Origin: an uncultured Lachnospiraceae bacterium
GTDB taxonomy: Bacteria > Bacillota > Clostridia > Lachnospirales > Lachnospiraceae
Reading direction: 5' to 3'
Assembly (NCBI GenBank): GCA_947624815.1
Contig: CANQME010000024.1
Span: 1 to 35,371 of the forward strand
DNA length: 35,371 nt
Position 1 is the first letter of the stretch; every line of letters starts with the position of its first letter. The notes under the pieces were generated by a model that did no database searches, was not told the origin of the DNA, and saw only the letters and a program-made list of their open reading frames with translations. The translations under genes were made by a program, and so were the position numbers. Positions 6,832 through 24,074 of this stretch are shown here, piece by piece.

Positions 6832-6847
6832 ATGGGAAAAAATGTGA
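6755..6847 (+). CDS. possible 30-residue leader peptide overlapping the next gene
   Basis: An ATG at 6755 is preceded by GGGAGG at a spacing of about four bases and opens 30 codons (MPGVAAAAGVFRAPFF...) ending with TGA at 6845-6847, 16 bases inside the next gene in another frame. This geometry could give translational coupling or attenuation. The peptide has no recognised homologue, and a short hairpin-forming stretch lies within it. It may be accidental. Confidence 0.3.
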   Translation: MPGVAAAAGVFRAPFFRAERTERKDLWEKM

Positions 6848-8181
6848 GAAAAGCGGCGGTTCTTGGGATCGCCGTCGTAGGGATCGCGCTGGGGATCTGC
6901 TTTATGGCTTACGGGACGGAGGGGACCGGGGAGCCGGTATATCCGCAGGTGGATATGGCAGAACCAGGGCTGACAGTGGCAGAGGAGCCGGCAACGATTC
7001 AGGATGGCATGGCCGGGGATACGGGAAAGCCGCGGGGAGCTGCGGTCGTGGAGCCGGCGCTGCCGCAGTGGCTCCGGGAGAAGGTGAAGGAGCAGGAAGC
7101 GGCGGTTACGGGCGAGGATCCGCAGCAGATCCCGGACAGCCGGTTCCTGGTGGAGAACCGGGCGGAGAATGATATGCGCGTGCTGTCCGCCGCCGGTCAG
7201 TGCATGACGGGAGACGGCGGCGACAGGGTGTTCTACGTGATCGGGAGGAACTACGTACCGGAAGGAAGCGCATTGCTGGTGATGTTCGGCCGGAGGCTGG
7301 AGTATTCCTGCACGCGGGAGGAAACATTTTCACGGAACGGGGACAGGTACTGCGTCGTCCGGTTCGCGGTGAAGGAAGCGGCTGGCGGAGCCGGGGGCGG
7401 ATCAGACGCGGACGGCTTTGTATGGACCGATGAGACGGTGCCGGCTCTGCGGCACTGGAATGTGGGAGACGTGGTGGTGCGGACGCTGGACGGCGTCGGA
7501 TACCGGTTCCGCTGTATCGACCGGAATTACGGAGAAGGAAGAGCCGGCGATAACGGCGGCCTGGCCCTGTTCCTGTGCGAGTCCGTGATCCCGGCCGACA
7601 GCGGGTCGCGGTATGCCTATGAACGGCTTGCGGACGGAAGCCACGGTTATGTCTATTATCCAGGGCCAGTGGTGAATTTCGGGGAGAGCTCCGAGTATGC
7701 GGATTCCGGGATCCGCGCATGGCTGTCCGGCCAGGAGGCGGATCCGGAACGGTTCCCGGCGGTAAACGTGGGGGTCGAGACCAGCTGCACGGGCCGGACC
7801 GCGCCGGGAAGCTTCAGCAGCTGCTCGCCTTCGCAGCTGCGGTTTTCCAGACTGGGAAGCCAGCTCCTGACAGACAGGTATTTCATCCTGTCCGTGGAGG
7901 AAGCGCTGAAATACAGGGATTTCCTCTGGAATGTGGACGGCTGCGGCGAGGAGGAAACCGCGGCGAATGCGGGAACCTTCAGCGCCGGCTTCTGGCTCAG
8001 GACGCCCATGGGCAATGAAAGCGGAGAGGACACAGGGTGCGTCTATGTAGTCGATCTGGTAAACGGAAATATTCATCCGCAGGCGGTAAAGCCGGAAGCG
8101 GAGGGAGCAACGGATGAGGAGACGGCGGTGACCAGTCCCATCGGGGTGCGTCCTGCTTTCGTACTCAGGCAGAAGGACTGA
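6832..8181 (+). CDS. secreted protein with a DUF6273-like domain
   Basis: The product is 449 residues. Residues 1-28 form a signal peptide or anchor (KNVRKAAVLGIAVVGIALGICFMAYG), followed by an acidic linker (about 30-100), a beta-rich segment, and from about residue 205 a domain with the hallmarks of DUF6273: a VGDVVVRTLDG start, a central segment around residue 300 (SGIRAWLSG), the LLTDRYFILSVEEALKY region, SAGFWLRTP, and the final IGVRPAFVL. Such domains occur in extracellular proteins of gut clostridia; no biochemical function is known to me. AAGGAAGG lies upstream of the ATG. It is first of three genes in one direction (51-bp and 59-bp gaps) and may be a surface partner of the two larger proteins. 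Confidence 0.8.
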   Translation: MGKNVRKAAVLGIAVVGIALGICFMAYGTEGTGEPVYPQVDMAEPGLTVAEEPATIQDGMAGDTGKPRGAAVVEPALPQWLREKVKEQEAAVTGEDPQQIPDSRFLVENRAENDMRVLSAAGQCMTGDGGDRVFYVIGRNYVPEGSALLVMFGRRLEYSCTREETFSRNGDRYCVVRFAVKEAAGGAGGGSDADGFVWTDETVPALRHWNVGDVVVRTLDGVGYRFRCIDRNYGEGRAGDNGGLALFLCESVIPADSGSRYAYERLADGSHGYVYYPGPVVNFGESSEYADSGIRAWLSGQEADPERFPAVNVGVETSCTGRTAPGSFSSCSPSQLRFSRLGSQLLTDRYFILSVEEALKYRDFLWNVDGCGEEETAANAGTFSAGFWLRTPMGNESGEDTGCVYVVDLVNGNIHPQAVKPEAEGATDEETAVTSPIGVRPAFVLRQKD

Positions 8182-8232: not shown

Positions 8233-11200
8233 ATGAGGAGAAGAAGGAATTGGGGAGCGGTATGCATACTGACGGCGGCCGTTCTGCTGCAGGCAGTATC
8301 CATGCCGTCGAACGCAGCGGCGATGACAGGGGCAGTCGAAGGGGCGCCGGTGATGCCGGCGCAGGAGCAGACAGTGGAAGTTGCCACGCCTTCGAAAGCG
8401 GCGCGGATATCGGAGCTTCCGGATATCTGGGAGAACTGGAACGGGGACGCGGATTTTACGGGAGACGGAACGAAGGAGAAACCGTATCAGATCCGCTCGC
8501 TGGCCGGTCTGATGGGGCTGTCCCGGGCGGTGGCGGAGGGCGAATCCTTCGCCGGGGAATATTTTGAACTGACACAGGACATCAATCTGGGGAATCTGGA
8601 TCTCAACGGCGGCAGCTGGAATCCCATCGGATGGTACCAAAGCGCGGAGGAAATGACCGGAGAGGTCCGAAATCCGTTCAGCGGACATTTTAACGGACGC
8701 GGACATACGATCCGGAACCTGCGGATCGTCTCCGGGAAGATGCCGCTGGATTATGTGGGTCTGTTCGGCGTGATCGACGGCGGAAGCGTGACGGACCTGA
8801 AGGTTCTGGCTCGCGACGTCGGGGGCACGGATCATGCGGCGGTTCTGGCGGGCGAGATCCGCGGCGGGGCGGTGATCCGGAATGTGACCGTATCCGGATA
8901 TGTAACCGCGGAAAACGGGCAGATTGGCCACGCGGGCGGAATTACGGCGGTGGCGGACGGCTCCGGAGGCCGGGTGACCATCGAAAACTGTTCGGCCGTC
9001 AATATCTCCGTCACCTCGGATCAGACGGAGGGCTGCGTAGGCGGCATCGCCGGCATGGCGGACGGCGCGGACCTGGTGGACAGCGTTGTGGAAACGGGCA
9101 GCGTCAATTCCGGGCATCTGAAGGGGCCCGGCTATGTGGGAGGCGTCGCCGGACGGATGGAAGACGCAAGGATCTACAATTCTTACGTAAATGGTCTGGT
9201 CGGCGGCCACAGAAGCCGCGCGGTCGGAGGAATCGTGGGCGAGTACGTCAGCGGCGACCTGATCCTGGCCAGATTCGCGGGAGAGACGGCGTCCACCGGC
9301 ATGGGAGCCGCCACCCGGGAAGGAACCTTTGTGGGAACCAGGGACATAAGCCATCCGTTCAGCTACGGCTCCTCTCCGGGAGACAACCTGGCCTATCTGT
9401 ATGCGGATACCGCGGCGGAGGCGAAGCAGGCGGTGGGCTCCGGGATCGCGGAGGACAATATGTTCCCGTATTCCGCCCATGTGGGGTACTGGATGGATAA
9501 CCAGCGAAGCGTATGCCTGCTGTCCGGCAACACGGAGAAGAATACGGGAGAGTATTTCTATCAGGAACTGGAAGCCGGCGTGAAAATGATTGTCACGGAA
9601 AAGCTGCAGAATGAATTCACGGCCCAGGAGTCGACGAAAGGGGTGGAATTCCGCCTGGATCATTTCGCTCCGGGGCAGCAGGGCCAGCCGGTGAAGGGAT
9701 ATCTTTTGTCGGTGCCGCGGATCGATACGAAGAACGCGGGCGGAACCTACGATACAGACGTGGCGTCCTTTACGGCCATGCCGGAGGGAAATTTGTCCTA
9801 TTACCGGCCGATCGACAAGAATCATCCCGCTGCGGTGGCGGCAGGAGTAACGGTATCCGTGACGACCTCGCCGAACAACCGGGACGGGAGCCGGTATCAG
9901 ATGGCAGCGGATGCGTCGGAGCGGGGCGGGGTGAAGCCTCCGGTCTATATTAACCAGATGGGACGGCAGGTTCCCATGACGTATGTGACCGGCGGCACCT
10001 ATGTGTTTACGATGCCCGCACGCGATACACAGATCAATGTGGAATACGTGAAGGTGACGACCGAACTTGCCATGACGCCTGCCGCAGCGGAGATTACCGT
10101 GACCCAGACCCGTACCGGCGACCGGAAAGCGCCGGATACGGTAACGGAGGTCCACGACGCAGGAGGGAATCTGATCGCCAGATATATCGACGGTACGCCG
10201 GATCCTTCCGTAGAGGTACAGCCGGTCCGGATCCGGAGCGAGCACAATGCGGACGGAGGCACGGCCGACCGGTCGGTCCTGTGGTCGGTGGACGACGGGG
10301 ATCTGATCAGCCTGATGACCGACGGCGGCTATACGGAGCGGGACGCGCAGATCATGCCGAATATGAACAGCGCGTTTATACGCGGGACGCTTGAGAAGCA
10401 GGTGAAGGCCCAGGCGGACGGCGGATATCTGGAAGCGATCATGCCGGCGGTCTATGAAAAGCACGCCGTCGTGACGGCGTCGTCCAATCCGGACACATCG
10501 GCCGACCGGGTGCCGGTGTACGGGAACTGCAAGGTAACGGTGCGGTTTCGGATCCTGGATCTCACGACCCGGAGAGTGGAGGGACTGCAGCTGAACAAGA
10601 GCGACCTTGTGCTGACCGTGACCAGGACGCTCACGGGCCGGCGTACGGCGCCTGCGGAGACGATTACCTGCTCGGAGCCGGTGATTCTGGCGGCGGGACT
10701 CTATCCGGAGAGACCGTTCTATAAGAATGTGAGCTGGAGCGACCATGACGGCGGTGCGGCGGTCGTACTGACTCCGCAGGGGGCCAATGCGTCCCAGTGC
10801 GCCGTAGCGGTGCGCTTCGACCCGGAAGGAAAGGCGAATCCGGCGTGGATCCAGAACGTGATCAATGAGGACAACCAGAAGAAGAAAGAGGATCCGTATG
10901 CCCGCCTGGAGGGACATGCGGAGTACACGGAAACGGTAACGGCGGTATCGGAGGACCAGACCCATGGAGTGGTTTCCGCCCGGTGCCGGGTGACGCTGCG
11001 GTTCGAGACGGTGGATAAGACGGGCGGTTACGGCGGCTTTGGGAGCGGCGGTCACAGCGGTTTCGGAGGCAGTCATGGCGGCTCCGGTTATGGAGGCCAC
11101 GGTGGCTATGGCGGTTCTGGCGGCGGCTCCGGTTCCGGCGGTCACAGTGGATTCGGCGGCTCCGGCGGCCCGGGTTCCGGCGAGAACGGACAAAACAGCG

Positions 11201-11646
11201 GTTCAAAAACACGGATTCCGGGAGCTTTGGTTCCCGGCGCGCCCGGCGCCGTACCGTCCGGGCCCCTTGGCGAAGGGGGACCGTCTGCCATAACGGGAAT
11301 CTGGCGGCAGGCGGCGGACGGCAGATGGATGTTCGAGGCGGGGCAGCAGGTCGTCGCCGGCCGCTGGGCCTATCTGTCCAACCCTTACGCGGATACGTCC
11401 GGGGGACAGCCGGCCGCAGACTGGTTCTATTTCGACGGGGACGGCTACATGGCCGTCGGATGGAGATGGATCGCGGACGGAAGCGGAACGGAACGCTGCT
11501 ACTATTTCAATGAACAGCCGGACGGAACCAGGGGGGCCATGCTCCACGGAGTGACCACGCCCGACGGATGGCAGGTGGACCATAGCGGCGCCTGGACCGT
11601 GGACGGCAGCGTGCAGACCAGACAGCCGGTACAGAGGCAGGATTAG
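8233..11646 (+). CDS. secreted GLUG-repeat surface protein with Gly-rich linker and cell-wall-binding repeats
   Basis: The product is 1137 residues. A signal peptide (1-29, RRRRNW then a hydrophobic core ending SNAAA) is followed by a beta-helix-like region (about 90-340) with GLUG-type units such as VGLFGVIDGGSV, VGGIAGMADGA, VGGVAGRMEDA and VGGIVGEYVSG. Next come beta-sandwich-like repeats (about 440-925), a Gly/Ser/His/Tyr/Phe-rich linker (about 930-990, GGYGGFGSGGH-type units) and C-terminal aromatic repeats (about 1020-1137: DGRWMF, ADWFYFDGDGYMAVGWRW, CYYFN) resembling choline/cell-wall-binding repeats. No LPxTG signal is present, so non-covalent wall attachment is the likely mode. The ATG at 8233 has GGAGG eight bases upstream. 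GLUG proteins are often adhesins or IgA-protease-associated; here a surface-adhesion role is inferred from architecture and neighbours. Confidence 0.85.
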   Translation: MRRRRNWGAVCILTAAVLLQAVSMPSNAAAMTGAVEGAPVMPAQEQTVEVATPSKAARISELPDIWENWNGDADFTGDGTKEKPYQIRSLAGLMGLSRAVAEGESFAGEYFELTQDINLGNLDLNGGSWNPIGWYQSAEEMTGEVRNPFSGHFNGRGHTIRNLRIVSGKMPLDYVGLFGVIDGGSVTDLKVLARDVGGTDHAAVLAGEIRGGAVIRNVTVSGYVTAENGQIGHAGGITAVADGSGGRVTIENCSAVNISVTSDQTEGCVGGIAGMADGADLVDSVVETGSVNSGHLKGPGYVGGVAGRMEDARIYNSYVNGLVGGHRSRAVGGIVGEYVSGDLILARFAGETASTGMGAATREGTFVGTRDISHPFSYGSSPGDNLAYLYADTAAEAKQAVGSGIAEDNMFPYSAHVGYWMDNQRSVCLLSGNTEKNTGEYFYQELEAGVKMIVTEKLQNEFTAQESTKGVEFRLDHFAPGQQGQPVKGYLLSVPRIDTKNAGGTYDTDVASFTAMPEGNLSYYRPIDKNHPAAVAAGVTVSVTTSPNNRDGSRYQMAADASERGGVKPPVYINQMGRQVPMTYVTGGTYVFTMPARDTQINVEYVKVTTELAMTPAAAEITVTQTRTGDRKAPDTVTEVHDAGGNLIARYIDGTPDPSVEVQPVRIRSEHNADGGTADRSVLWSVDDGDLISLMTDGGYTERDAQIMPNMNSAFIRGTLEKQVKAQADGGYLEAIMPAVYEKHAVVTASSNPDTSADRVPVYGNCKVTVRFRILDLTTRRVEGLQLNKSDLVLTVTRTLTGRRTAPAETITCSEPVILAAGLYPERPFYKNVSWSDHDGGAAVVLTPQGANASQCAVAVRFDPEGKANPAWIQNVINEDNQKKKEDPYARLEGHAEYTETVTAVSEDQTHGVVSARCRVTLRFETVDKTGGYGGFGSGGHSGFGGSHGGSGYGGHGGYGGSGGGSGSGGHSGFGGSGGPGSGENGQNSGSKTRIPGALVPGAPGAVPSGPLGEGGPSAITGIWRQAADGRWMFEAGQQVVAGRWAYLSNPYADTSGGQPAADWFYFDGDGYMAVGWRWIADGSGTERCYYFNEQPDGTRGAMLHGVTTPDGWQVDHSGAWTVDGSVQTRQPVQRQD

Positions 11647-11689: not shown

Positions 11690-11705
11690 TGCAGGAGGTA
11701 TGAGG

Positions 11706-14700
11706 ATGAGAAAGAAATGGATCCGGGAAAGACAAAAACAGGTGCAGGCGGGGATTCTGGCGATCCTCTGCTTCTGCATGGCCGTACTGCCCCTGTTTGA
11801 CATGACGTCCGTCGTAGGCCGCGCGGCCACATTCAGCGGCCCGAATATCTGGAGCGGCGGTTCGGAGATGCTGTTCGGCCACAAAAGGAACTATCTGTAC
11901 CGCTGGTCGGACGGTTACCAGATGACATTCTGCATCTCGCCGGGAAAGCATATGGGAGTCAGCGTGGTATCCGAGGCGATCCGGACTACGGTAGACGATA
12001 TGGGGATCCCGTATATTAAGAGTCCGGGCGATTATGAGCTGCTGGCGGACGTCTGCTTCTGGTATGACCATCACGGCGCCGACCGGGCGGATAACGCCAC
12101 CTATGCGGCGGCGCAGACGGCGATCTGGGCCATCATGAACGACGGATGGGAAAGCGCCGGGGCGCTGGAGGCAATCGTGGACCGCCATGTGCCGGGAACG
12201 CTTGCCCGCTGGCACGAGCTTCAGGCTTATGTGGAACGTACCGGCGGCCCGGGCGCGGAGATCCCTGCGTGGCTTAAGACGTCCAGAAGAGACGCGCGGA
12301 AGGAGCCTCACGCGATGCGCCAGAAGGACGGGGTCTGGAAGCGGGAGTTTGATATTTCGTCCGTTCCCCAGCTGGCTCCCTGTGAATGGCAGTTCGAAGG
12401 AGACGCCGCAGGCTGGTCCGTTCAGACGTCGGGAGGGAAGCTGGTCTTTACCTGCACGGACGGCCAGGTTTCGGAGATGATCGTATCCACTCCCGTTCCC
12501 GACAGCCTTGCCCAGTGGGAGCATAATACGGAGACGCTGAACATCTATCTGCCGAAGGGGAGTACTTCAATCCTGCAGGCCATGATAAGCGCCGGTCTTC
12601 CCACGTCCAGATTCTACCTCTGCCTGACCGGCGGGGAGGCCGCCCCGGAAGAGGAGAATGAGGTGGAGCTTACGATCTACCGGCATCAGGAGACATTTTC
12701 GTCCCATTACCAGGTGGGTCTGGAAAAGCTATGCGCGGAGACCGGACAGCCGCTGGCCGGCGCACGGTTTCAGGTTCTTGAGGCGTTTGACGCGGCCCAG
12801 ACGGGAGGGCTTCTGGATCCCGGAAGCATGACGCCAAGACCGGCGGTCTGGAGGGATTTTAAGATCTGCGGCGACGAGGCGACGGATGAAGAAGGACATT
12901 TTATTCATGGCGACCGGAAGAGCTATGAATACGAGAAGACCTATTGCAGCGGCCATCCGAAACCCGGAGCCTCGGAAGAGGAGGAAATACCCGAAGAACG
13001 GAAAGCGGGAGCTGCGGAAGATAAGGAAATGTCTGAAGAACGGAAAGCGGGAGCTGCGGACATTGAGGATGACGCAGAGGCGGCCGCGGAGCAGCAGAAG
13101 AGAGCGGAACGGCAATGGGAGGCGCTGGTGGAGCAGTGCGCCGCCTACAATGAAGGGAATCATTTCCATAACGTGACGCCGGGAGCGGCGCTGGAGGAAA
13201 TGCTTGCGGACCGGGACGCGTCGTATGAGCAGTTCATCGGTCTGGAATACAGGTATGCCTTCCGGGAGACGCAGGCCAGATACGGGTATGTCCGGCACGG
13301 GCAGCACCGGGACGACCGCTCGATCCCCATCTTGCGGGTCTCGTCGCTGGAGGCGGGAGGAAGCGTGTATGAGGACGGGAGATCGGAGGAGGCTGTGGTC
13401 AATGAAGACATTGGACAGAGGACGTACCGGCCGGCAGCGGAGACGAAAAGAGAGCCGTACCGGCCGGCAGGAACGGTTCGGCAGGCCGCAAAACCGGGTG
13501 GAGGCCGGGATTGGGGGTGGAAGAACAGGATCCGGAAGGAGGCGGGGAGCGGTGAGCGGAAAAAGGACCGGACGCCGTCCGGAAAGCCGGCGGAATCGGA
13601 TTGGCCGTTCAAAACAGCCACGCCTGCGAACGCCGAAGAGGCGGCGGAACCCGGTTGGGACGCGCTTGCCGCGGCGACGCCGTCTGACGCGGAACGGTCC
13701 GGAAAGCTTCGGTATCTGTTTCTCGGAAGAACAGGGAAGGGGCCGGCAGGAGATCCGGAGGAGGAGGATATCCTGGGAGAACCGGCGCTTCCGGAACCGG
13801 TGGAGGACGATGTCGAATGGGTGACGCCGAGGCCCTATGACACGGAACCGCAGTATCCGGCGGCGGTAACGGATCACCGGACGGAAGGAGAGCTTCATAT
13901 CAATAAGAGGGATATGGAGCTGTCGGACGGAGAGGGGAACGGTTATGACAGCTATGGAGATACCCAGGGAGACGCGACGCTGGAAGGGGCGGTCTATGGC
14001 CTTTACGCGGCGGAAGATATCATTCATCCGGACGGGAAGACCGGCGTGGTCTACCGGGCCGGGGAGCTGACGGCGGTGGCGGCTACGGATAAGAATGGGG
14101 ACGCGTCCTTCATGGCGTATACGGAGGAAGGAGCCCTTATGGATGGGGCTTTCGGGCAGTCCCGAAGCGGGCGGCAGCCGGACTCCTGGATCGGCCGGCC
14201 GCTGATCGCCGGGCGTTATCTTGTGAAGGAGATCGCCAGATCGGAGGGATACGAACTGACAGTGGATCCGGCGGCCGTGAAGAAGGCGAAAGCGGCCGGC
14301 CGCGCCGACGTGACCTCGGCCATGAGCCATCCGATCGATATGCATGACGGCTCCTGGCTGGAGTTTGAGGTGACCTGCAGGGATACGTCGGAGGGCTTCG
14401 ACATTCTGGTCAGCGGGTTTCCGGAAGGGTCTGCCTTCTTCCGGTCGGGGATGGAAGAGACATCCGCCGAGGAAGAGGTCGTGACGGGAGTCCGGATGGT
14501 TCCCACCGGGGAATACGAGCGTGCCAAAGGCGGCGAATACCGGCTGGATGCGACCGGAAGCCGGATTCCGAAGCGCGACGGAGATGGCAGCATTCTTTAT
14601 GATGAAGAAAGCCCAGTGATGAGGACATATTTTGCAGTGAGAAGGTCCTCGTATTATCCGGGCGGCGAATATGAGATCACGGTGGATCCTAAGAAGTGGA

Positions 14701-17700
14701 GGGATACCGGAGCGGCAGACGGAACCTATATCCGGGAAGAGGTAAACGCCATCCTGGAGCAGCTGGGGTATGTGAAGGCGGATCCGGACAGCGCCCCGTG
14801 GACGGTGCTGCAGCTTGGCGGGAAAACGAATCAGAGCCTGGCGCGGGAGATCCTGGAATGGTACGGCTCCGCGTCCTTCTGGAGCTGCGCCATCATCGAC
14901 CGGGTCTGGGAGGAAGACGGAGTCTGGAAAGCCCTGGCGTTCCATGATTATCCGGGAGGCAGCGCGGTCTATGAGGCGGCGTCGGATACGGTGTATGTAC
15001 GGGTACCGGTGCGGGTCGGAGGCGGCAAGAGGCATATGTACGTGCCGTTTCCTTCCGGCGCCTGTGTGATCAGAAACGGCTATGTGACGCTGGCCTCCGT
15101 GAAGCAGAAGGATGGTGAGATCCCCTTCGGAGCGGTGATGGAGGACTATCTGGAACCGGAATATGCGCCGCTTTATGAGCGGTACGCAAAAGGAGACTAC
15201 CTTCTGGACGGCAGAGGGGAGCCGATCCCCATATACAGGGAGGAATATATCCTGGAAACCAGGACCAATACGACGAGCGACTACGCGCTTACGCCTCTGG
15301 ACGCGGTCTATGACGCGGCCGCCGGAAGCTATCGGATCCATGTCGATAATACCGTTGACTGGAGTCGGAGAGAGGAACCGCTCGTGATGACGTTCCGTGC
15401 TTCTGCGCCGGAAAAGACGCGGATCCATGAGGGCAGGCAGATGTTTTACAGCGATTATCTGACGGATATTGCAGGCGCCGGAGCCAGCGCGTTCGCGTGC
15501 GTCCGGGGAGACGAACCGGCGGGGGCGGCAAAGCTGGTCTATCCGGGGCAGATCTCGCCTGTACAGGACGGTACGGGGGTTTTCGGAGCCGGAAGCAGGC
15601 GGGAGCCCTTAAGAATGGGAGAGAGGATCATTACCCAGAGGGTGAAGGTGATCAAGACGGTCACAGCGCCGGACGGGACGCCGGCGCGGGAACAGCTGCC
15701 GAACTTCCGGTTTAAGGCGTATCTGAAGAGCAATCTGGAGCGGCTTTACAGGGATGAGAACGGCGCGGTCGTATGGCTTGACCGCCGCGGACGCGCGGTC
15801 GATATTGCGGAGAAGAAGCGGACGTATCCGGCGAAGGTTCCCGGGATCTTCACGAAGGTACCCAGACAGACAGCGCCGCTTTATAAGCAGAACCGGGACG
15901 CGGTGATTGCCGGCGAGGTGTTATACCGGGACGGGGAGGATAAGCCCCGGGACGGCTATACGGCGGTACTTGAAACGGTCGAGAAGACGCTGGCGGACGG
16001 GACCGGCTTCCGGAAGATGCGGGTATATAATTATGATAAGTTTTTCGACGCAATGACGGTGGCTAATTATGACAAATGGGACGACGGGACTGCCCGGTCG
16101 ACGTCTTACAGGCCCCGCGGCAATACGGTCAACCGAAGCAAAGCGGCGGTGGAAAATGAGAAGGCGTCGGATATGGTCCGACAGTTCGCCATTGACTGGT
16201 ATCTGGACGGCGAAGCGGCGCGGATGGATACGGAGGGGACGACCGCCTACGGGGATCAGCTTTATGACGAGGCGCTGCGCCGGGCGATCCGGAAGGCGGA
16301 GAATTATCTGAAACCGTTCTTTGCCTATGACCTGGATGAGATCTATGCGATCGCCTGGGACGGGGAAGCCGGAGGCGGTCCGGATGGAGATCCCTCGACG
16401 GTGAGCGCCGACGATACGGCAGAGGGGAGTTGCTTCGGCGTTTCTGCGGGACTGCCCTACGGGACGTATGTCATAGCGGAACAGCAGCCCCATTATGCGA
16501 AGCTTCGGGATTTCAGAAACCGCCATTACCGGACCGGCAGCCCGAAGGAGGTCTGTGTGCCGTCGCTGTATCTGCAGACGGAGATGGAGGATCCGGACGA
16601 CGTCCTGAGCGCGGAGTACCTTTATGACAGCCAAATGTCCATGGAAGAGATGCAGGAAAGGTACCGGATCCGGTTCGGGGAGGAAAGACCCGGACCGGAG
16701 GCAGACGGGGCGGCGGCGTATGTGACGGAAGCCGGCGGTCACATCGGAGAATATGAGATCTACCAATACGGCATGGATATGGATCTGATCAGCAACGGCG
16801 CAGGAAGCGCGGGAAAGGGAGATTATTTTGCGCTTACCCAGGACAGATGGAAGCCGTATCCGAATTACTATAACGAAGCGGACGACCGGACGGCGGGGGA
16901 GGTGACGTATTATCTGTCGGAAGGAAAGCCGGGCAGCAGGGAGGCCGGTCAGGTCTACCGTTACAGCTCGGTAACGGAGGATGCGGCGAATGCGGACGGA
17001 GTGCGCTTCGCAGGCGGGCCCGTTTCGGCAGAAAATCCGAGAGGGTATTATTTCCGGGATCATGTAAAGGCCATGCGCGGCGTCAGGACGGCGTACGAGG
17101 GACTGTTCAGCCCTGCGCTGGTGCCCGAAAGCCCTGAGGAAGGCGTCTGCGCCCGCGTGCGGTTCGCCAATATTCCTTACAGGACGAGACTGCGTATCGA
17201 GAAGCTGGATTCGGAGACCCGGGAGAATCTGCTGCATGACGACGCCATTTTCAATCTCTACGAGGCGGAACGGGAGGAGGCGCCGGACGGGGAAGGACGT
17301 GTGCGTTTCTATGACGCGGACACGACGGTAAAGGGCAGTCGGGAATTTCTGGAAAGCATGAGAGCTGCGGATATCCGTCCGCTGCCGGGCGGCGGTTATC
17401 AGGGAGTGGTTTCGGAGGGAACCCCGGTCTGCCGGGAGAAAAAGCGGGTGTTTCAGACGGATGAGCGCGGAGTGAGAACCGGCGAATTCCGTTCCTATAC
17501 GACGGCCCGCGACGGGGCGCTTGAGAAGGCGGGGGAGGATTTCGCCGGCGGATACGGCCTGCAGAACGCGGGCTGGCTTGAGACGCCGGAACCCCTGGAC
17601 GCCGGAGCGTATGTTCTGGCAGAGGCGAAGGCTCCCGACGGATATGTACGAAGCCGTCCGGTCGCGGTGGAGATCTACAGCGATACGGTTACGTATTATC

Positions 17701-20700
17701 AGAGGGGAGACAGGGACCGGCGCGTTGTGGCGACCATATACGGGACGGATGCGGAAGGCGCGGAGGGACCGGAGGATACGGCGCGGATCTATGTGGAAAA
17801 CGAGCCTGTCCGCCTGTTGGCGGAGAAGCGGAAGGAAGCTCAGGCAGACGGCGGAGGCGGAGACGGGCGGCCCCGGACCGTGACCTTCCGGATCAGCGGC
17901 CGGGTGGACGCGGGACTCGGTGAGATCGGCGGCAGCGCCAATTATGAATACGCCTTCCGCAACGGCGTTTACCTGGGATACGCCTGGCGGAAGGGAACGC
18001 TGGAATATCTGAAGGCGCTTAAGGATTCCGGAATGGACGTCCGGATCGTATATCACGGAGGGATATTCGCAGGCTACGGATATGTCACGCAGACGCTTGA
18101 GACGGCCGACGACCGCAGCGGATATGTGACGGGGGCGCTGATGACCCTGTATGAAGGGATGGAGCTGACCCCTTCCGGCGACAGGGAGGATCTGGCCTAC
18201 GAAGGGCTTGTCGTGGAACGCGGCGGAACCGGCAACGTGACGAGGATGTACGTAAAGAAAGGGTACGCCGGATCCCGGACGGAATTTGTGAACACAGGGC
18301 GCACATCTTCGGAACCGCCCGGGGACGTATGGAGCGCGGTGCGGACCGAACGGGACGATACGGATATTCTGTTCCATGATCTGGGCGGTCTGGAGCTGTT
18401 TCGGACGGAAACCGTTGCCGGCAAAAGGGTGCTGTACGCATACGGACGTGACCATAGCCGTCTGGAGGTGGGGCAGCTGGAGGAGGATAAGGAGCTGTGT
18501 CCGGCGACAGACGGCAGCCAGTCGATCTTCGCGTTCCGAAACGGCGCGCCGGTCTTCGAGCTGGCCGGTGGGGATTTTAAGCGGATCTCCTATTCGGCTG
18601 CGGATAAGGTGTTTGAGGGAGCGTTTGCCCGTCCGAAGAGGCGGCCCGACGGTACGGTCGGAATGAGCGGGGGCGTGGCGCTGTTCCATCTGGCTGCGGA
18701 CGGCAGCAGGGACAGTCTAACGGATCCGTATACGGGGATGGCCTACGTGCTGGCCGAAAGCAGACCGGCAGACGGGGATGACCGCGGCAGCGCCGGAATG
18801 GGGTTTGACATGGAGACTTTAACGGGAGCGGAGAATGTCCGGGTACTGGTATGGCCGGTGACGGTCAGCCGCGACAAAGAGGGGCGTCTTATGGCGCGGG
18901 AGAAGATCGCCACTTCCAGGATCGCCACGCCTGGAGAAACGGCGGATACGGAGTATCTGACCGGGACCTGGGAGCCGGAGGACGGCGGACAGAGCCACCA
19001 AATGTCGTCGCTTGTCAAAAACCGCTTCGGTCAGGATCTGAACGGAGAGCCGGTTTTTGCCGGGAATAACGGAAGCTTCGGAAAAACCGTCAGACCGGTC
19101 TATGACAGGCATGGACTGCCCCGGTATTACCGCTGCAGCGGTCAAAGCTATGAGACGGAAATTCCGCTTTATGACCGGAGCGGCCGGCCGGTGAGGGAGA
19201 AGACGGCGGATCTGGCCGGTCATTATGACGAGGCGTCCTATGTAATGGAGAACGGGAAGATCCTTCACCGTGCCGGAGAGAGCTATATCCTGGAGAATAC
19301 CTGGATAACGGGCGAGAGCACGCCGGACGATCCGTTTTCGGGACATATGACGAAAGGACAGGCGGATCTGCTCCGCAGAGTACCTTCAGGCGCTTATATC
19401 ATGGAGGAACTGGCGGCGCCGGAGGGGTACCGGAAGGGGCTTCCCACCGGCGTGGTCGTGGAGGAGACGGCGGCGGTTCAGAGGACGGAAATGACGGACA
19501 GGACGACGAAGCTCCTGATCGGAAAGATAGATGGGACGGAGAGTTATTCCTATCAGGTCCTGGATATGAGGCGGACGGACGATTCCGGAAGAACGGCTGT
19601 GCTGGGAACCGTCACGGAAGGGAAGGGGGCGTTTCGTCATACCCAGATACCCGGCGCCCGTCTGACGCTTTATGAGGCGTCCAGGGTATATACGTCGGAT
19701 CTGGAGAGATATCCGAACGGAACCTATCTGAAGAAAAAGGACGGCAGACCGTTCCGGTTCCACTCTACGGACAGCCGGCCCGGCGCAGAGGAGGAGCTGA
19801 CCGCATCGTGGATCTCCGGAGACCGGCCGGTCTATCTGGAGGGACTCCCTGCCGGAGAATACCTGCTGGAGGAGACGGAGACGCCGGCCGGCATGGTCAG
19901 CGCGCCTGCTGTGGAGGTTACGGCAGGGAAGACCGGGCAGGTACAAACCTATATTCTGTATAATGACCATACGAAGGTGGAGCTTGAGAAATATTCCGGG
20001 GACGGCGCGGATCGCAATCTGGTAAACGGCGCAGGATTTACAATCTTCGAGGCGGTTACGGACGCGCAGGGACAGGTCGTTTACGACGGGAACGGATGGC
20101 CCGCATATGATCCGCAGAAGGCGGTGGACCGCTTCGTCAGCTGCGACGGAGAGAAGTACCGGGGCTTTATCCGGGAATTCGAAGAGCAGTTCGGACGGTA
20201 CGGAACGGGGCTTAGGGCCGTGTCCTGGGAATACGGAGGACAGAACCGGACTGCATATTATGTCAATCATACCCAGCTTGACGCGTCCGAGGACGGCGGC
20301 AGCGGCACGGCATTTCCCACTACGGTGCAGATGACGCTTCGGACCGACAGCGGCGAGGAGCTGCGGGTCACGGCCTATGGGCAGGGAGAGAGCCGGCTGG
20401 GGCAGAACTGGGTCTATGAATACCGGCTGGACTATCATGCGCTGCCGGAGGTGAACGAGAGAGCGTCGTCCTATCTGACGGTGGACGGAATGAGGCGGTG
20501 GGACTATCTGCCGGCGGGGGCGGCGTATGCGGCGGTGGAAACGGAGCCTCCGGCCGGTTATGCGGCGGCGGAACCCGTGCTTCTGAAGATACAGGATACG
20601 GCGGATATTCAGCGGTACCGCGTCCGCAATGAGGAAGGGGCGATCATGATCTCCAAGAGCTTCAGCGGCGGAGGCGAGCTTTCCGGGGCGCGGCTGCGTC

Positions 20701-23700
20701 TGTACCGCGCGGCGGCAGACGGCAGCCTTGTCAGGGAGGATGCGTATCTGGCTGCGGAGTGGATCAGCGGACAGGACGGAACCTATACGGAGGATGACCG
20801 GTTAAACGGACGGATCCCCGCGGGATATCAGGAGGGGGATCTGAGACCCCATATGCTGAAACGGCTGCCGTCCGGCGATTACTGGCTGACGGAAGCGGAA
20901 AGCCCGGATTACTATACCACGTTCAGACCCGTCCGGATCGAATACAGAAGCGGCGACCCGATCCGGATCGTCAGGGTATCGGACGTTCTGGCGGAAGGCG
21001 AGGTAACGGTAAGGAAGGCGGATCCGGAAGGAAACGCCCTGACGGGGGCCGTATTCGAGGTGTCCGCGTACAGGCAGCCGGATCTGAAGAATCCGGTCTT
21101 TACCAGACGGTTCAGCGATTCCGGCGGCGCCGCATCCCTTACCGGACTTCCGGTGGGAGAAGCGCAGGAGGACGGAAGCGTCGTCCCTTACTGCTACCGG
21201 CTGAGGGAGGTCGTTCCGCCCCGGGGCTATGCGGTGAATCCGCAGGTGTATTCGTTTGAGTTCGCACCCGACCGAAACGGCGTGTCCTACCAATGGGGCG
21301 AGACCGCCGGGCATGAGCAGCGGATCACGGACAGGAGGACGCGGATCGCCATAAGGAAGAAGGATTTCGGAGAGGCGTTTGTCGCCGGCGCAGAGCTGGC
21401 GGTATACCCGGTCGCAGGTACCGGTGAAAACGGCGCTTATCTCTATGATGCGGATGCGCCGTTTGACCGGTGGATCACGTCGGAGGGGGAACCGGATCAT
21501 GTTCTGGAAGGGCTGATTGCCGGGCAGAGCTATCTGCTGGCGGAGCTGTCTGCGCCTGAAGGATATCAGATCATGCCTCCGGCCGTATTTACCCTGTCGG
21601 AGGACGGAAGACGGATCAGCTCCATCGGCAGTCATCCGGCGATTATCACATTTCATGATCTGTTCTCTGCGACGGTCCGGGGAAGATATGCCGTGCGGAG
21701 TGAAGTGACGGCGGAGGACGGGGACGGCAACACGGCTGCGTCCTGGACGGCGTCCGGAGATGGACATGTGCTGACGGCTGCGGATGGGATCCGAAACGGC
21801 GGGATCTATACGCTGACGGAGAGAACGATCTACAGCGACGGCTCCGCGGAGGTGACGGACAGGAGGACGCTGCGGCTCTCCCTGGAGGACGGGCGCTGTC
21901 CGGTGAAGGATCGGAGGCCGGTACGGGTCCGCCTGCGTCTGCTGGAAGCAGAGGAAACACAGGCGCCGGAACCGGAGCCGGATCGGACTGCCAGAGAGCT
22001 GGCCGCCTATGATCCGTCGGAAGCGCGACCGGAGCTGATCGTGGGGGAGCCTGCGTCGGAGCAGGAGCTGTTATCCAACCGAAAGACGTATGTGCTGGCG
22101 GAGACGACCTTCTATGACGACGGCAGCCGGATCGAAAGCGGCCGGCTGGCGTTCACGATCGGGGACGACGGCTCTGTGGCGGCTGTCGCCGGATATGACC
22201 AGGCGCGCCGTCTGACGGTCAGCAAGCGGGACATTACCGGAGAGGAAGAGCTTCCCGGAGCGCTTCTGCAGATCCTGAATGAAGACGGCGGGGTGGTTGA
22301 GGAATGGATCTCCGACACAAAGCCGCACCTGGTCGGCGCCGGTCTGGAGCCGGGAAGGCCCTATACGCTTCGCGAGGTTTTGCCGCCGAAGGGCTGGGCG
22401 TATGCGTCGGAGGTGACGTTCACATTATCTTCCGAAGGAAGCACGGAGCAGGTGCTCATGACGGACGGGCCGACCCGCGTATCGGTGACAAAGACGGATA
22501 TTACCGGAGAGAAGGAGCTTGCGGGAGCCAGGATGCAGATTCTGGAGGCCGAAGGCGTGCAGGAGGGACTGCCGCGGGAGGACGTCCGGCGGGGACGGCT
22601 GGTGGAGGAATGGATCTCGACCGGAGAGGCCCATGAGATCGTTGGAAAGCTGGAAGCAGGGAAGACATATATCCTGCATGAGGAATCGGCCCCTGCCGGA
22701 TACGCGTATGCCGCGGATATTGTGTTTCAGGTGTCTGAGGATGGCCGGATCGACCGGGTTGTGATGAAGGACGAAGCGCTTCCCCAAAGGCCCGCCGGTC
22801 CGCGAACGTATGGGAAGCCGGCGGCTGTAAAGCCCGGTCCTCGGCTGCCCGGAACCGTGGAAGCGGAGTATCAGGTATACCGTTTCGGGGTAGGAGCCGT
22901 ACCACTGGGAAGCCCGCAGCTCTTTACGGCGCCGGCGACCGGCGATGCGGACGCCGGGGCGGCCATGGGGGCGCTTGTGCTGGCAGTATGCTCGGCCGCG
23001 GCGTGCGGGATCTTCGGCGTCCTGCAGAGAGGGAATGCGCCACGTCGGAATAAGCCCCATCGGAATAAGCCCTGCCGCAGAGGGAAAGCCATGTTTGCCG
23101 TTTCCGCAGGTCTGGCCGCCGCCATGGCCCTGACCGCGCCCGCCGTTACGGCCCGTGCAGAGGAACAGGTGACCGAGACCGCGGAAGATGAGATCATGGT
23201 GCGTTTCAGCGCGTCGCCCGCAGCGGGAGGAGAAGGGCAGGAGCCTGCCCCGCCGCCGGATATCTATGTGTGGCAGGATGAGGAATATGATCTCAGCTCG
23301 TATCAGCTGACGGAGGTCCTGATGCCGGAGCTTGTCAGACAGGTGCGGGAATCCGTAAGATACGAAAGTGTCGAAAGGGCGGCGGGAGTGCCCGCCGAGA
23401 TCGAGACTGAGATCCGGGACGAGGCCACAGGGCGCAGGGCGTCGGTCATGCTTCCGCTGGAAAGCGAGGAGGCTTCCGGCTGGCGGTGGGAAGGGGGATT
23501 TACGTTCCCTGTTACCGTATGGGGATACGATTCCGGAAGCTTTCTTCTGGGAGGCGAAACGGTGGAGGTACGGGAAGATCAGCCGTTTGCAGGCTATGAG
23601 AGCGCGCTTCTGGAGCTGATCGGCGTGGATCCGGAATACTACCGGATCGACAGCGTGGAATGGAGCGGTCCTCCCGAAAACGGAGAAAACGGCCAGATCC

Positions 23701-24074
23701 GCCGGCAGGCTGCCGCTTCGGGACAGAAGTATGTGGCGGATATCGAGGCGGTCTACGGGGGCCCCGCCGTGATTCCTGCACAGCCGGGGACGGCGTACGA
23801 AGCGGTCTACCGGCGAAGAATGTCTGAGACGGAAACCGAAGACCCTACGGAGCCGGAAACGGAAGCTCCAAAGCATGAGACGGAGGCGTCCGCCGCGTCT
23901 GTGCCGGCGGATCCGACGCAGGAGGAACCGGAGGTCCTGTGGTGGCTTAGAAATCTGAGGTACGCGACTACGGTGATCATCGGATTGGGCGTTCTGGCCG
24001 GACTGCCGGCGGTCCTTATGTTCTTCAGGCGCAGAAAAAGACGGAAGGAGAACGAAAACAGGCGAAAAGTCTGA
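11706..24074 (+). CDS. giant thioester-domain / Cna-B (SpaA-like) surface adhesin
   Basis: At 4122 residues this is the dominant gene. The ATG at 11706 fits AGGAGG (11693-11698) with 7-base spacing; the ATG at 11700 is one base from it. Order: signal peptide (1-40); thioester (TQXA) domain with Cys76 (FCISPG) and Gln137 (AAAQTAIWAI), the pair that forms the internal thioester for covalent target capture; a charged linker (about 420-720); then Cna-B/SpaA-type domains starting near residues 336, 729, 1311, 1829, 2601, 2757, 2979, 3099, 3212, 3501 and 3591. Each opens with a Lys strand (VSKRD, VTKTD, LRIEKLD) and most end with the E-box YxLxExxxPxGY (YILHEESAPAGY, YTLREVLPPKGW). APATGD (3742-3747), a hydrophobic stretch and basic residues follow, then a second signal-like segment (from Met3796), a further domain and a C-terminal membrane segment with RRRKRRK. 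No sortase gene is in the window. Confidence 0.9.
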   Translation: MRKKWIRERQKQVQAGILAILCFCMAVLPLFDMTSVVGRAATFSGPNIWSGGSEMLFGHKRNYLYRWSDGYQMTFCISPGKHMGVSVVSEAIRTTVDDMGIPYIKSPGDYELLADVCFWYDHHGADRADNATYAAAQTAIWAIMNDGWESAGALEAIVDRHVPGTLARWHELQAYVERTGGPGAEIPAWLKTSRRDARKEPHAMRQKDGVWKREFDISSVPQLAPCEWQFEGDAAGWSVQTSGGKLVFTCTDGQVSEMIVSTPVPDSLAQWEHNTETLNIYLPKGSTSILQAMISAGLPTSRFYLCLTGGEAAPEEENEVELTIYRHQETFSSHYQVGLEKLCAETGQPLAGARFQVLEAFDAAQTGGLLDPGSMTPRPAVWRDFKICGDEATDEEGHFIHGDRKSYEYEKTYCSGHPKPGASEEEEIPEERKAGAAEDKEMSEERKAGAADIEDDAEAAAEQQKRAERQWEALVEQCAAYNEGNHFHNVTPGAALEEMLADRDASYEQFIGLEYRYAFRETQARYGYVRHGQHRDDRSIPILRVSSLEAGGSVYEDGRSEEAVVNEDIGQRTYRPAAETKREPYRPAGTVRQAAKPGGGRDWGWKNRIRKEAGSGERKKDRTPSGKPAESDWPFKTATPANAEEAAEPGWDALAAATPSDAERSGKLRYLFLGRTGKGPAGDPEEEDILGEPALPEPVEDDVEWVTPRPYDTEPQYPAAVTDHRTEGELHINKRDMELSDGEGNGYDSYGDTQGDATLEGAVYGLYAAEDIIHPDGKTGVVYRAGELTAVAATDKNGDASFMAYTEEGALMDGAFGQSRSGRQPDSWIGRPLIAGRYLVKEIARSEGYELTVDPAAVKKAKAAGRADVTSAMSHPIDMHDGSWLEFEVTCRDTSEGFDILVSGFPEGSAFFRSGMEETSAEEEVVTGVRMVPTGEYERAKGGEYRLDATGSRIPKRDGDGSILYDEESPVMRTYFAVRRSSYYPGGEYEITVDPKKWRDTGAADGTYIREEVNAILEQLGYVKADPDSAPWTVLQLGGKTNQSLAREILEWYGSASFWSCAIIDRVWEEDGVWKALAFHDYPGGSAVYEAASDTVYVRVPVRVGGGKRHMYVPFPSGACVIRNGYVTLASVKQKDGEIPFGAVMEDYLEPEYAPLYERYAKGDYLLDGRGEPIPIYREEYILETRTNTTSDYALTPLDAVYDAAAGSYRIHVDNTVDWSRREEPLVMTFRASAPEKTRIHEGRQMFYSDYLTDIAGAGASAFACVRGDEPAGAAKLVYPGQISPVQDGTGVFGAGSRREPLRMGERIITQRVKVIKTVTAPDGTPAREQLPNFRFKAYLKSNLERLYRDENGAVVWLDRRGRAVDIAEKKRTYPAKVPGIFTKVPRQTAPLYKQNRDAVIAGEVLYRDGEDKPRDGYTAVLETVEKTLADGTGFRKMRVYNYDKFFDAMTVANYDKWDDGTARSTSYRPRGNTVNRSKAAVENEKASDMVRQFAIDWYLDGEAARMDTEGTTAYGDQLYDEALRRAIRKAENYLKPFFAYDLDEIYAIAWDGEAGGGPDGDPSTVSADDTAEGSCFGVSAGLPYGTYVIAEQQPHYAKLRDFRNRHYRTGSPKEVCVPSLYLQTEMEDPDDVLSAEYLYDSQMSMEEMQERYRIRFGEERPGPEADGAAAYVTEAGGHIGEYEIYQYGMDMDLISNGAGSAGKGDYFALTQDRWKPYPNYYNEADDRTAGEVTYYLSEGKPGSREAGQVYRYSSVTEDAANADGVRFAGGPVSAENPRGYYFRDHVKAMRGVRTAYEGLFSPALVPESPEEGVCARVRFANIPYRTRLRIEKLDSETRENLLHDDAIFNLYEAEREEAPDGEGRVRFYDADTTVKGSREFLESMRAADIRPLPGGGYQGVVSEGTPVCREKKRVFQTDERGVRTGEFRSYTTARDGALEKAGEDFAGGYGLQNAGWLETPEPLDAGAYVLAEAKAPDGYVRSRPVAVEIYSDTVTYYQRGDRDRRVVATIYGTDAEGAEGPEDTARIYVENEPVRLLAEKRKEAQADGGGGDGRPRTVTFRISGRVDAGLGEIGGSANYEYAFRNGVYLGYAWRKGTLEYLKALKDSGMDVRIVYHGGIFAGYGYVTQTLETADDRSGYVTGALMTLYEGMELTPSGDREDLAYEGLVVERGGTGNVTRMYVKKGYAGSRTEFVNTGRTSSEPPGDVWSAVRTERDDTDILFHDLGGLELFRTETVAGKRVLYAYGRDHSRLEVGQLEEDKELCPATDGSQSIFAFRNGAPVFELAGGDFKRISYSAADKVFEGAFARPKRRPDGTVGMSGGVALFHLAADGSRDSLTDPYTGMAYVLAESRPADGDDRGSAGMGFDMETLTGAENVRVLVWPVTVSRDKEGRLMAREKIATSRIATPGETADTEYLTGTWEPEDGGQSHQMSSLVKNRFGQDLNGEPVFAGNNGSFGKTVRPVYDRHGLPRYYRCSGQSYETEIPLYDRSGRPVREKTADLAGHYDEASYVMENGKILHRAGESYILENTWITGESTPDDPFSGHMTKGQADLLRRVPSGAYIMEELAAPEGYRKGLPTGVVVEETAAVQRTEMTDRTTKLLIGKIDGTESYSYQVLDMRRTDDSGRTAVLGTVTEGKGAFRHTQIPGARLTLYEASRVYTSDLERYPNGTYLKKKDGRPFRFHSTDSRPGAEEELTASWISGDRPVYLEGLPAGEYLLEETETPAGMVSAPAVEVTAGKTGQVQTYILYNDHTKVELEKYSGDGADRNLVNGAGFTIFEAVTDAQGQVVYDGNGWPAYDPQKAVDRFVSCDGEKYRGFIREFEEQFGRYGTGLRAVSWEYGGQNRTAYYVNHTQLDASEDGGSGTAFPTTVQMTLRTDSGEELRVTAYGQGESRLGQNWVYEYRLDYHALPEVNERASSYLTVDGMRRWDYLPAGAAYAAVETEPPAGYAAAEPVLLKIQDTADIQRYRVRNEEGAIMISKSFSGGGELSGARLRLYRAAADGSLVREDAYLAAEWISGQDGTYTEDDRLNGRIPAGYQEGDLRPHMLKRLPSGDYWLTEAESPDYYTTFRPVRIEYRSGDPIRIVRVSDVLAEGEVTVRKADPEGNALTGAVFEVSAYRQPDLKNPVFTRRFSDSGGAASLTGLPVGEAQEDGSVVPYCYRLREVVPPRGYAVNPQVYSFEFAPDRNGVSYQWGETAGHEQRITDRRTRIAIRKKDFGEAFVAGAELAVYPVAGTGENGAYLYDADAPFDRWITSEGEPDHVLEGLIAGQSYLLAELSAPEGYQIMPPAVFTLSEDGRRISSIGSHPAIITFHDLFSATVRGRYAVRSEVTAEDGDGNTAASWTASGDGHVLTAADGIRNGGIYTLTERTIYSDGSAEVTDRRTLRLSLEDGRCPVKDRRPVRVRLRLLEAEETQAPEPEPDRTARELAAYDPSEARPELIVGEPASEQELLSNRKTYVLAETTFYDDGSRIESGRLAFTIGDDGSVAAVAGYDQARRLTVSKRDITGEEELPGALLQILNEDGGVVEEWISDTKPHLVGAGLEPGRPYTLREVLPPKGWAYASEVTFTLSSEGSTEQVLMTDGPTRVSVTKTDITGEKELAGARMQILEAEGVQEGLPREDVRRGRLVEEWISTGEAHEIVGKLEAGKTYILHEESAPAGYAYAADIVFQVSEDGRIDRVVMKDEALPQRPAGPRTYGKPAAVKPGPRLPGTVEAEYQVYRFGVGAVPLGSPQLFTAPATGDADAGAAMGALVLAVCSAAACGIFGVLQRGNAPRRNKPHRNKPCRRGKAMFAVSAGLAAAMALTAPAVTARAEEQVTETAEDEIMVRFSASPAAGGEGQEPAPPPDIYVWQDEEYDLSSYQLTEVLMPELVRQVRESVRYESVERAAGVPAEIETEIRDEATGRRASVMLPLESEEASGWRWEGGFTFPVTVWGYDSGSFLLGGETVEVREDQPFAGYESALLELIGVDPEYYRIDSVEWSGPPENGENGQIRRQAAASGQKYVADIEAVYGGPAVIPAQPGTAYEAVYRRRMSETETEDPTEPETEAPKHETEASAASVPADPTQEEPEVLWWLRNLRYATTVIIGLGVLAGLPAVLMFFRRRKRRKENENRRKV
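12984..13067 (+). repeat. 42-bp tandem duplication in the adhesin linker
   Basis: Two adjacent 42-bp units encode EIPEERKAGAAEDK and EMSEERKAGAADIE in the charged linker between the first Cna-B domain and the next, showing recent in-frame expansion. Confidence 0.8.
22929..23165 (+). other. internal sorting-signal-like element followed by a second signal peptide
   Basis: Within the giant ORF, codons from 22929 read APATGD (LPxTG-like), then about 22 hydrophobic residues (AAMGALVLAVCSAAACGIFGVL), then a basic segment with RRNK/HRNK/CRRGK. At 23091 an in-frame ATG preceded by AGAGGG (6-base spacing) begins MFAVSAGLAAAMALTAPAV...ARAEE, a typical signal peptide with an Ala-x-Ala-like cleavage site. 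This is the end of one cell-wall protein and the beginning of another, joined without a stop codon. Confidence 0.65.

Follow-up and report, generated by a model that had tools for sequence, protein, structure and literature searches.

A predicted thioester adhesin fibre encoded in one frame with a conserved partner domain in an uncultured Lachnospiraceae bacterium

The giant open reading frame and its locus

The window, by which we mean the whole stretch of 35,371 nucleotides analysed here (contig CANQME010000024.1 of an uncultured Lachnospiraceae bacterium), contains a set of three collinear genes within a glycogen-metabolism locus, flanked by an MscS-type gene on one side and MalQ on the other; the three genes and their parts lie on the forward strand. 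The first gene of the set (6832..8181) encodes a secreted protein of 449 residues that resembles DUF6273 (Pfam E 8.5e-5), its score of 22.9 bits being slightly below the family cut-off of 23.5. The product of the second (8233..11646; 1137 residues) was labelled by eye as GLUG-like with a Trp/Tyr-rich, wall-binding-like C-terminus; no Pfam family matched it at E 0.01, and an NCBIfam match to ZmpA over residues 177-338 (2.7e-4) was far under the ZmpA cut-off. The third is a giant open frame (11706..24074, with another ATG at 11700) specifying 4122 residues and a mass of 454.3 kDa, in agreement with the single product of about 450 kDa described in the first-pass annotation of this DNA. Its start (11706..11828) has the character of an N-terminal signal peptide, with a basic stretch, a hydrophobic stretch and then GRAA. 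Consensus scans at the three-gene locus gave weak results.

Among the 25 other genomes of the window's genus, 22 contained a match to the giant and three had none; two hold pieces at contig ends, and a homologous stop-free frame of 3757-4760 codons was present in 20 of the 25. At one place (L103) the giant was spread over several frames. For the conservation analyses 25 whole giants were extracted, comprising 21 primary copies from the genus (the window included), two paralogues and two proteins from other genera. The paralogues are second giants found in two genus members (L053 and L054); their best segments are 37-38% identical to the window protein, and they too carry the fused tail described below together with the Cys and helix-Gln motifs.

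The order of the three surface genes, which had been noted for the window, proved to be conserved across the relatives. All 20 genus relatives have a GLUG homologue immediately upstream of the giant, and 17 of them a DUF6273 homologue upstream as well, the regions from the remaining three being too short to reach it; GLUG-like genes also adjoin giants in other genera (L051, L052, L110, L111, L120 and L146). Downstream, the genus relatives have MalQ (15/20) or an HD gene (3/20), and in the last two the region ends too early. Gene sizes had at first pointed to a conjugative-element setting for the window copy, which was rejected on the neighbours scanned, namely GlgB, MalQ, a debranching enzyme, GH31, MscS, DUF3810 and an HD protein. 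Ala-rich tandem repeats were observed at window positions 4492-4625, 29044-29222 and 32095-32241, inside the glycogen branching, debranching and GH31 enzymes.

A thioester-type head on a Cna-B/SpaA stalk

The earlier reading of the giant as a thioester-type head on a Cna-B/SpaA stalk was borne out by motifs conserved in 19 of 19 aligned heads and by a Pfam SpaA match at E 4.9e-71. The head (11820..12629) is probably a class II thioester domain. Its best PDB profile match was to SaTIE-TED (6fx6; E 0.31), a weak match that covers the Cys and the TQxxW motif and stops before Gln291. Pfam TED (PF08341) was absent from the window protein and NCBIfam likewise gave no match to the head, so that naming it from either database alone was dropped; weak TED matches were obtained in 9 of the 19 head homologues (best E 0.0043). 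The assignment to the thioester class is thus a prediction from motifs and a weak profile match. The alignment consisted of 12 genus members (the window included) and seven other rows, namely L105 and L113 from two other genera, L123, L100, the Enterocloster bolteae plasmid protein L131 and the two paralogues.

Two of the motifs had been pointed out before, FCISPG at Cys76 (11931..11933) and AQTAIW at Gln137 (12114..12116), and both are at the places given, with both residues invariant (19/19). The sequence FCIS fits the [YFL]CΦζ motif of thioester cysteines, and in AQTAIW, which corresponds to the TQxxΦW-type helix motif with Ala as first residue in the window protein, the Q and W are kept in all 19 heads. 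The first-pass annotation had taken Cys76 and Gln137 as the bonded pair. In the available parts of two published studies, the bond-forming Gln of thioester domains lies in a late strand with the motif ΦQζΦΦ and the Gln of TQxxΦW is reported as not essential (PMC4450167, PMC6194298), and for this reason Gln137 is probably not the bond Gln. The residue that fits the late-strand position is Gln291 (12576..12578), in the sequence LQAMIS; 17 of the 19 heads have Q at this column and the other two (L123 and L131) have it one column off. The fit of LQAMI to ΦQζΦΦ is loose, with Ala rather than a hydrophilic residue at ζ. We therefore consider Gln291 the likely thioester partner of Cys76, and the pairing of Cys76 with Gln137 as real at the level of motifs and probably wrong as a predicted bond.

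Nine of the 21 genus giants (L042-L050, which are longer) keep a Cys and were judged by eye to have no TQxxΦW motif, which indicates that a thioester is not a constant feature of the genus. An AlphaFold model of the head from a two-row alignment had a pLDDT of 45.3, and a fold search with this low-confidence model found nothing below E 0.001. In a search of 299 genomes of the family the strongest eight head matches were all in genomes that also bear the partner domain described below; this co-occurrence was set aside as evidence, seven of the 19 rows in the head query having come by way of the partner search or as paralogues.

Behind the head, Pfam SpaA matched the giant in eight stretches (235.4 bits against a cut-off of 23.1). 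The first isopeptide unit (12726..13874) carries long insertions and the triad K341-E521-D723, in which the Lys, the Glu and an N or D at column 723 are each found in at least 24 of the 25 giants. The rest of the stalk (15654..22772) contributes nine more complete triads, the first starting at K1317 and the last ending at D3689, which brings the Lys-Glu-Asn/Asp sets to 341-521-723, 1317-1592-1822, 1833-1973-2032, 2041-2568-2598, 2607-2723-2753, 2762-2945-2975, 2984-3063-3093, 3104-3168-3209, 3507-3557-3587 and 3596-3659-3689. At each of the ten, the K, the E and the N/D are kept in at least 24 of 25 giants, with N and D interchanging among giants at nine of the ten acceptor columns. E521, D723 and N1822 were picked after the fact from the conservation pattern. 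Two further units, at K734 and K3218, have no clear acceptor; D3318 was considered for the latter and rejected as it is not conserved.

The contrast with residues at large supports the choice of positions. At all 12 Lys starts chosen by eye the Lys is kept in 24 or more of the 25 giants, compared with 15 of the 139 Lys overall, and the 11 Glu chosen from the sequence are kept to the same degree, compared with 35 of 391 overall. Of the 15 conserved Lys, 10 are preceded by an N/D column at a distance of exactly 9 or 11 residues, as are only 4 of the other 124. The earlier count of at least eleven Lys strands accordingly holds, and that of about ten E-boxes is fair, since a slightly loosened pattern found seven (four of them exact fits to YxLxExxxPxGY) and looser boxes surround the 11 conserved Glu. 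The Lys/Glu/Asn triads expected of Cna-B domains are likewise present, and isopeptide bonds may form in all ten, though conservation by itself is no proof of this.

The long middle part of the protein had been described as falling outside clear Cna-B units and perhaps holding unnamed folds. This stands for residues 860-1305 (14283..15620), which have no recognised fold and whose profile had no PDB sequence match at E 1. It does not stand for residues ~2045-2555, which fall within a single Cna-B unit, after its Lys2041 and before its Glu2568, and so appear to be an insertion in that unit and not a row of units; a PDB sequence search with this region returned only two matches, at E 0.4, that were taken as spurious. 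Much of the supposedly unnamed middle would then consist of insertions inside Cna-B units. Within the insertion of unit 1, residues ~414-488 (12945-13169) contain a CxGHP and a later C...HFH cluster that look like a metal site; Cys414 and Cys478 are kept in at least 20 of 25 giants, and the remaining residues of the clusters were judged by eye.

A second protein behind an internal sorting-like signal

The end of the giant (22929-24074), absent from the first-pass annotation, holds an internal sorting-like signal, a second signal peptide and a second protein that occupies the last ~330 residues. The sorting-like motif, APATGD (22929..22946), is followed by 375 residues and is thus not at the very C-terminus. 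After it come a membrane segment identified by hydropathy (22947..23027), a basic loop, RGNAPRRNKPHRNKPCRRGK, that is predicted to be cytoplasmic (23028..23087; net charge +9 counted with short flanks), a putative internal signal peptide ending TARA|EE, in the pattern of AxA and then E/Q (23088..23159), a conserved partner domain of 184 residues that we call CTERM (23259..23810; alignment of 22 rows), and a final membrane segment with the basic tail RRRKRRK (23967..24071).

In each of the 27 fused giants examined, the partner domain is preceded by two hydrophobic segments joined by a loop with a net charge of +3 to +15. The sequence AxA|[EQ] follows segment 2 in 20 of the 27 and follows segment 1 or the last segment in none (0/27 each); without the E/Q rule, AxA also occurs after segment 1 in 12 and after segment 3 in nine. 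Stand-alone partner proteins have an N-terminal hydrophobic segment in 18 of 18 cases and a C-terminal one in 17, with AxA|[EQ] in only 6 of 18. Since the second protein in the tail has its own export signal, cleavage of the product may yield two functional parts; the cutting would probably be done by signal peptidase and, in giants that retain the motif, by sortase as well.

The sorting-like motif does not survive everywhere. T-G-D/N is altered in 9 of the 27 fused giants, with Thr changed to M, L or V in seven (L044-L050), Gly changed in L035 and the sequence SAGD in L037. At least one sortase was detected in 25 of the 26 genus genomes, and the window genome has two sortases, neither on the contig of the giant; in the exception, G008, which is 98% complete and has a fused giant, no sortase was found at E 0.001. 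Because of the altered motifs and G008, sortase anchoring cannot be general. The same two observations would fit a protein that is never cut, in which the hairpin and the last helix form a triple membrane anchor, the fusion itself being neutral, and TIEpLS20, the thioester adhesin of plasmid pLS20, needs no sortase according to the part of its description available (PMC8092201). We nevertheless regard an uncut product as somewhat doubtful, as it does not account for the retention of AxA|E/Q after segment 2 and after neither of the other segments, or for the intact LPETG of the short fused protein L115. Division into an adhesin and a separate partner is the reading that we follow below.

For the partner domain itself, the window row had no Pfam match at E 1, the best match to PDB profiles was unrelated (E 0.7), an AlphaFold model from a two-row alignment reached a pLDDT of 52.6, and the searches gave no phage match and no relative on a viral contig; the plasmid matches were three Enterocloster records. 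Within the family, 26 of 299 genomes hold the domain, in 30 places, and a search of 295 genomes of the order gave five matches, all within the window's family. Thirteen of the 30 places are in ORFs of about 800 residues or more, six of these being fused giants. The other seven ORFs (796-1777 residues) comprise four with a thioester-like head as judged by eye, a fragment of a broken giant, one truncated by the end of its contig and one without the inner signals. Eight of the places lie directly after a SpaA-type gene, three have same-strand DUF6273 and GLUG genes as neighbours, and at six no SpaA-type adhesin, DUF6273 or GLUG gene was seen alongside. Partner-domain genes were noted near the glycogen/HD locus at L112, L116, L117 and L118, with no adhesin in the region fetched; L115 encodes its short fused thioester-type protein at this same place.

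The domain is thus a second protein fused in frame to the adhesin here and a separate neighbouring gene in several other genera. In L052, for example, the adhesin ends with PKTGD, a hydrophobic segment and basic residues, and the partner domain is the next gene. Seven of the eight adjacent adhesin-partner pairs overlap by 4-14 bases, with gene starts set mechanically. Overlap and fusion would both keep the two products near a 1:1 ratio, which suggests a structural partner and not an enzyme.

The fused state was also found in other lineages, and in the window's genus it applies to 20 of the 21 primary giants; in the remaining one, L041, the partner is a separate overlapping frame. On a tree of 52 domain rows, poorly resolved beyond the window's clade, that clade has 22 members, 21 fused and one split, with L041 nested among the fused forms. 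The fused-giant label requires five changes on this tree, at least three of them by starred branches, and gain and loss were not distinguished. The window genome is a draft (87.8% complete, in 207 contigs), and a frame of 4122 residues or its fused tail might be ascribed to misassembly or a frameshift. Such an artefact is very improbable, given that the 20 fused genus giants are stop-free in separate assemblies and that other genera and a complete plasmid likewise carry fused forms.

Proposed mechanism, relatives and possible target

Our preferred interpretation, to which we give a probability of about 0.6, is that the locus encodes a covalent-capture fibre fused to a 1:1 membrane partner as a two-part polyprotein. 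The N-terminal thioester domain, with its predicted Cys76-Gln291 bond, would bind a target amine, and the stalk of at least ten isopeptide-locked Cna-B/SpaA units would keep this head at a distance from the cell. Behind the internal sorting-like signal, the second signal peptide, the partner domain and the membrane anchor would form a second protein, needed 1:1 with the fibre as a membrane-side base or assembly factor. Elsewhere most of the adhesin and partner genes overlap, possibly with coupled translation, whereas in the window they are fused. The chain would cross the membrane as a hairpin with the sortase-like site and the signal-peptidase site at its outer ends, and cutting at both ends would part the fibre from its membrane partner. 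In giants with a decayed sorting motif, it may be the hairpin that holds the fibre. This explanation is built on domain similarity, conserved motifs, gene order and the existence of both fused and separate states, from which we infer the thioester and isopeptide bonds, the two cleavages, the topology, the role of the partner and the target.

The giant would work like the TIE adhesins, and its stalk is of the Cna-B/SpaA class. It resembles the class II TIE proteins BaTIE, SaTIE and EfmTIE86 in its [YFL]CΦζ-type Cys, TQxxΦW-type motif and late Gln, and also in having an isopeptide stalk, a sorting-like signal and a long Cys-Gln spacing, which is 215 in the window protein compared with 171 in SaTIE and 204 in EfmTIE86 (values from the available part of PMC6194298). 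It differs from them in its far greater length, in the insertions inside its Cna-B units and in having a second signal peptide, a partner domain and a further anchor after the sorting-like signal.

Fusion to a partner is not confined to the CTERM domain. In L123 the adhesin, partner and sortase are in one frame (sortase match E 2e-40, with the sortase of L051 and that of L131, the latter annotated as class B, as queries), and among the matches listed at least eight sortases lie inside ORFs of 1644-1670 codons in several genera. Three such long ORFs were fetched (L143, L144 and L145), and L143 alone was scanned with Pfam; this protein of 1633 residues (genome G060) matched TED (8.4e-11), SpaA (6.1e-84) and Sortase (5.2e-9). 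It is like the window protein in joining a thioester domain, a SpaA stalk and a further protein behind the sorting signal in one frame, and unlike it in that the fused partner is a sortase and not the CTERM domain. Among the literature matches listed, no description of a natural adhesin-partner or adhesin-sortase fusion was found in the open literature. The window's own genome also has a second giant of at least 3244 residues (L127:3-10713, contig C11), with DUF7507/DUF11 repeats, a Gram_pos_anchor match below threshold and a sortase gene behind it.

A parallel outside the chromosome is WP_235622276.1 (L131, on the Enterocloster bolteae plasmid NZ_CP022465.2), which has a similar head with the Cys and helix Gln, a sorting-like signal, a second hydrophobic segment and a fused partner domain, and which is annotated merely as a SpaA isopeptide-forming pilin-related protein. 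It differs in lying in a conjugation-type operon, where it adjoins a class B sortase and genes of the FtsK/SpoIIIE type and the TcpD and TcpE families. TIEpLS20, the conjugation adhesin of the Bacillus subtilis plasmid, similarly has a class II thioester head and Cna repeats in the portion of its description available (PMC8092201). Together, the operon of the plasmid relative and pLS20 raise the possibility that the fibre binds other bacteria, in mating pairs or in communities, and not the host. Unlike TIEpLS20, the window copy is chromosomal and has a partner domain. We regard a bacterial target as rather unlikely, as no conjugation gene was seen among the window proteins scanned, and MalQ downstream of the giant in most genus relatives marks a chromosomal metabolic setting.

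More broadly, we tentatively propose that the thioester adhesins of Lachnospiraceae are polyproteins made of an adhesin, an excisable two-helix hairpin and a 1:1 membrane partner, with a sortase as well in places; the partner would then define an assembly or anchoring factor not described before, and in lineages with decayed motifs the hairpin would have taken over the anchoring role of sortase. On the Gram-positive surface, linking a sortase-type substrate to its partner through an internal signal peptide would amount to a polyprotein strategy, of which no account came up among the papers listed from one open library. The analysis brings out a conserved and so far uncharacterised partner of the covalent adhesins of gut bacteria and indicates the residue at which to test for the thioester, and, by linking a chromosomal fibre to plasmid conjugation adhesins, it makes the binding target a direct question.
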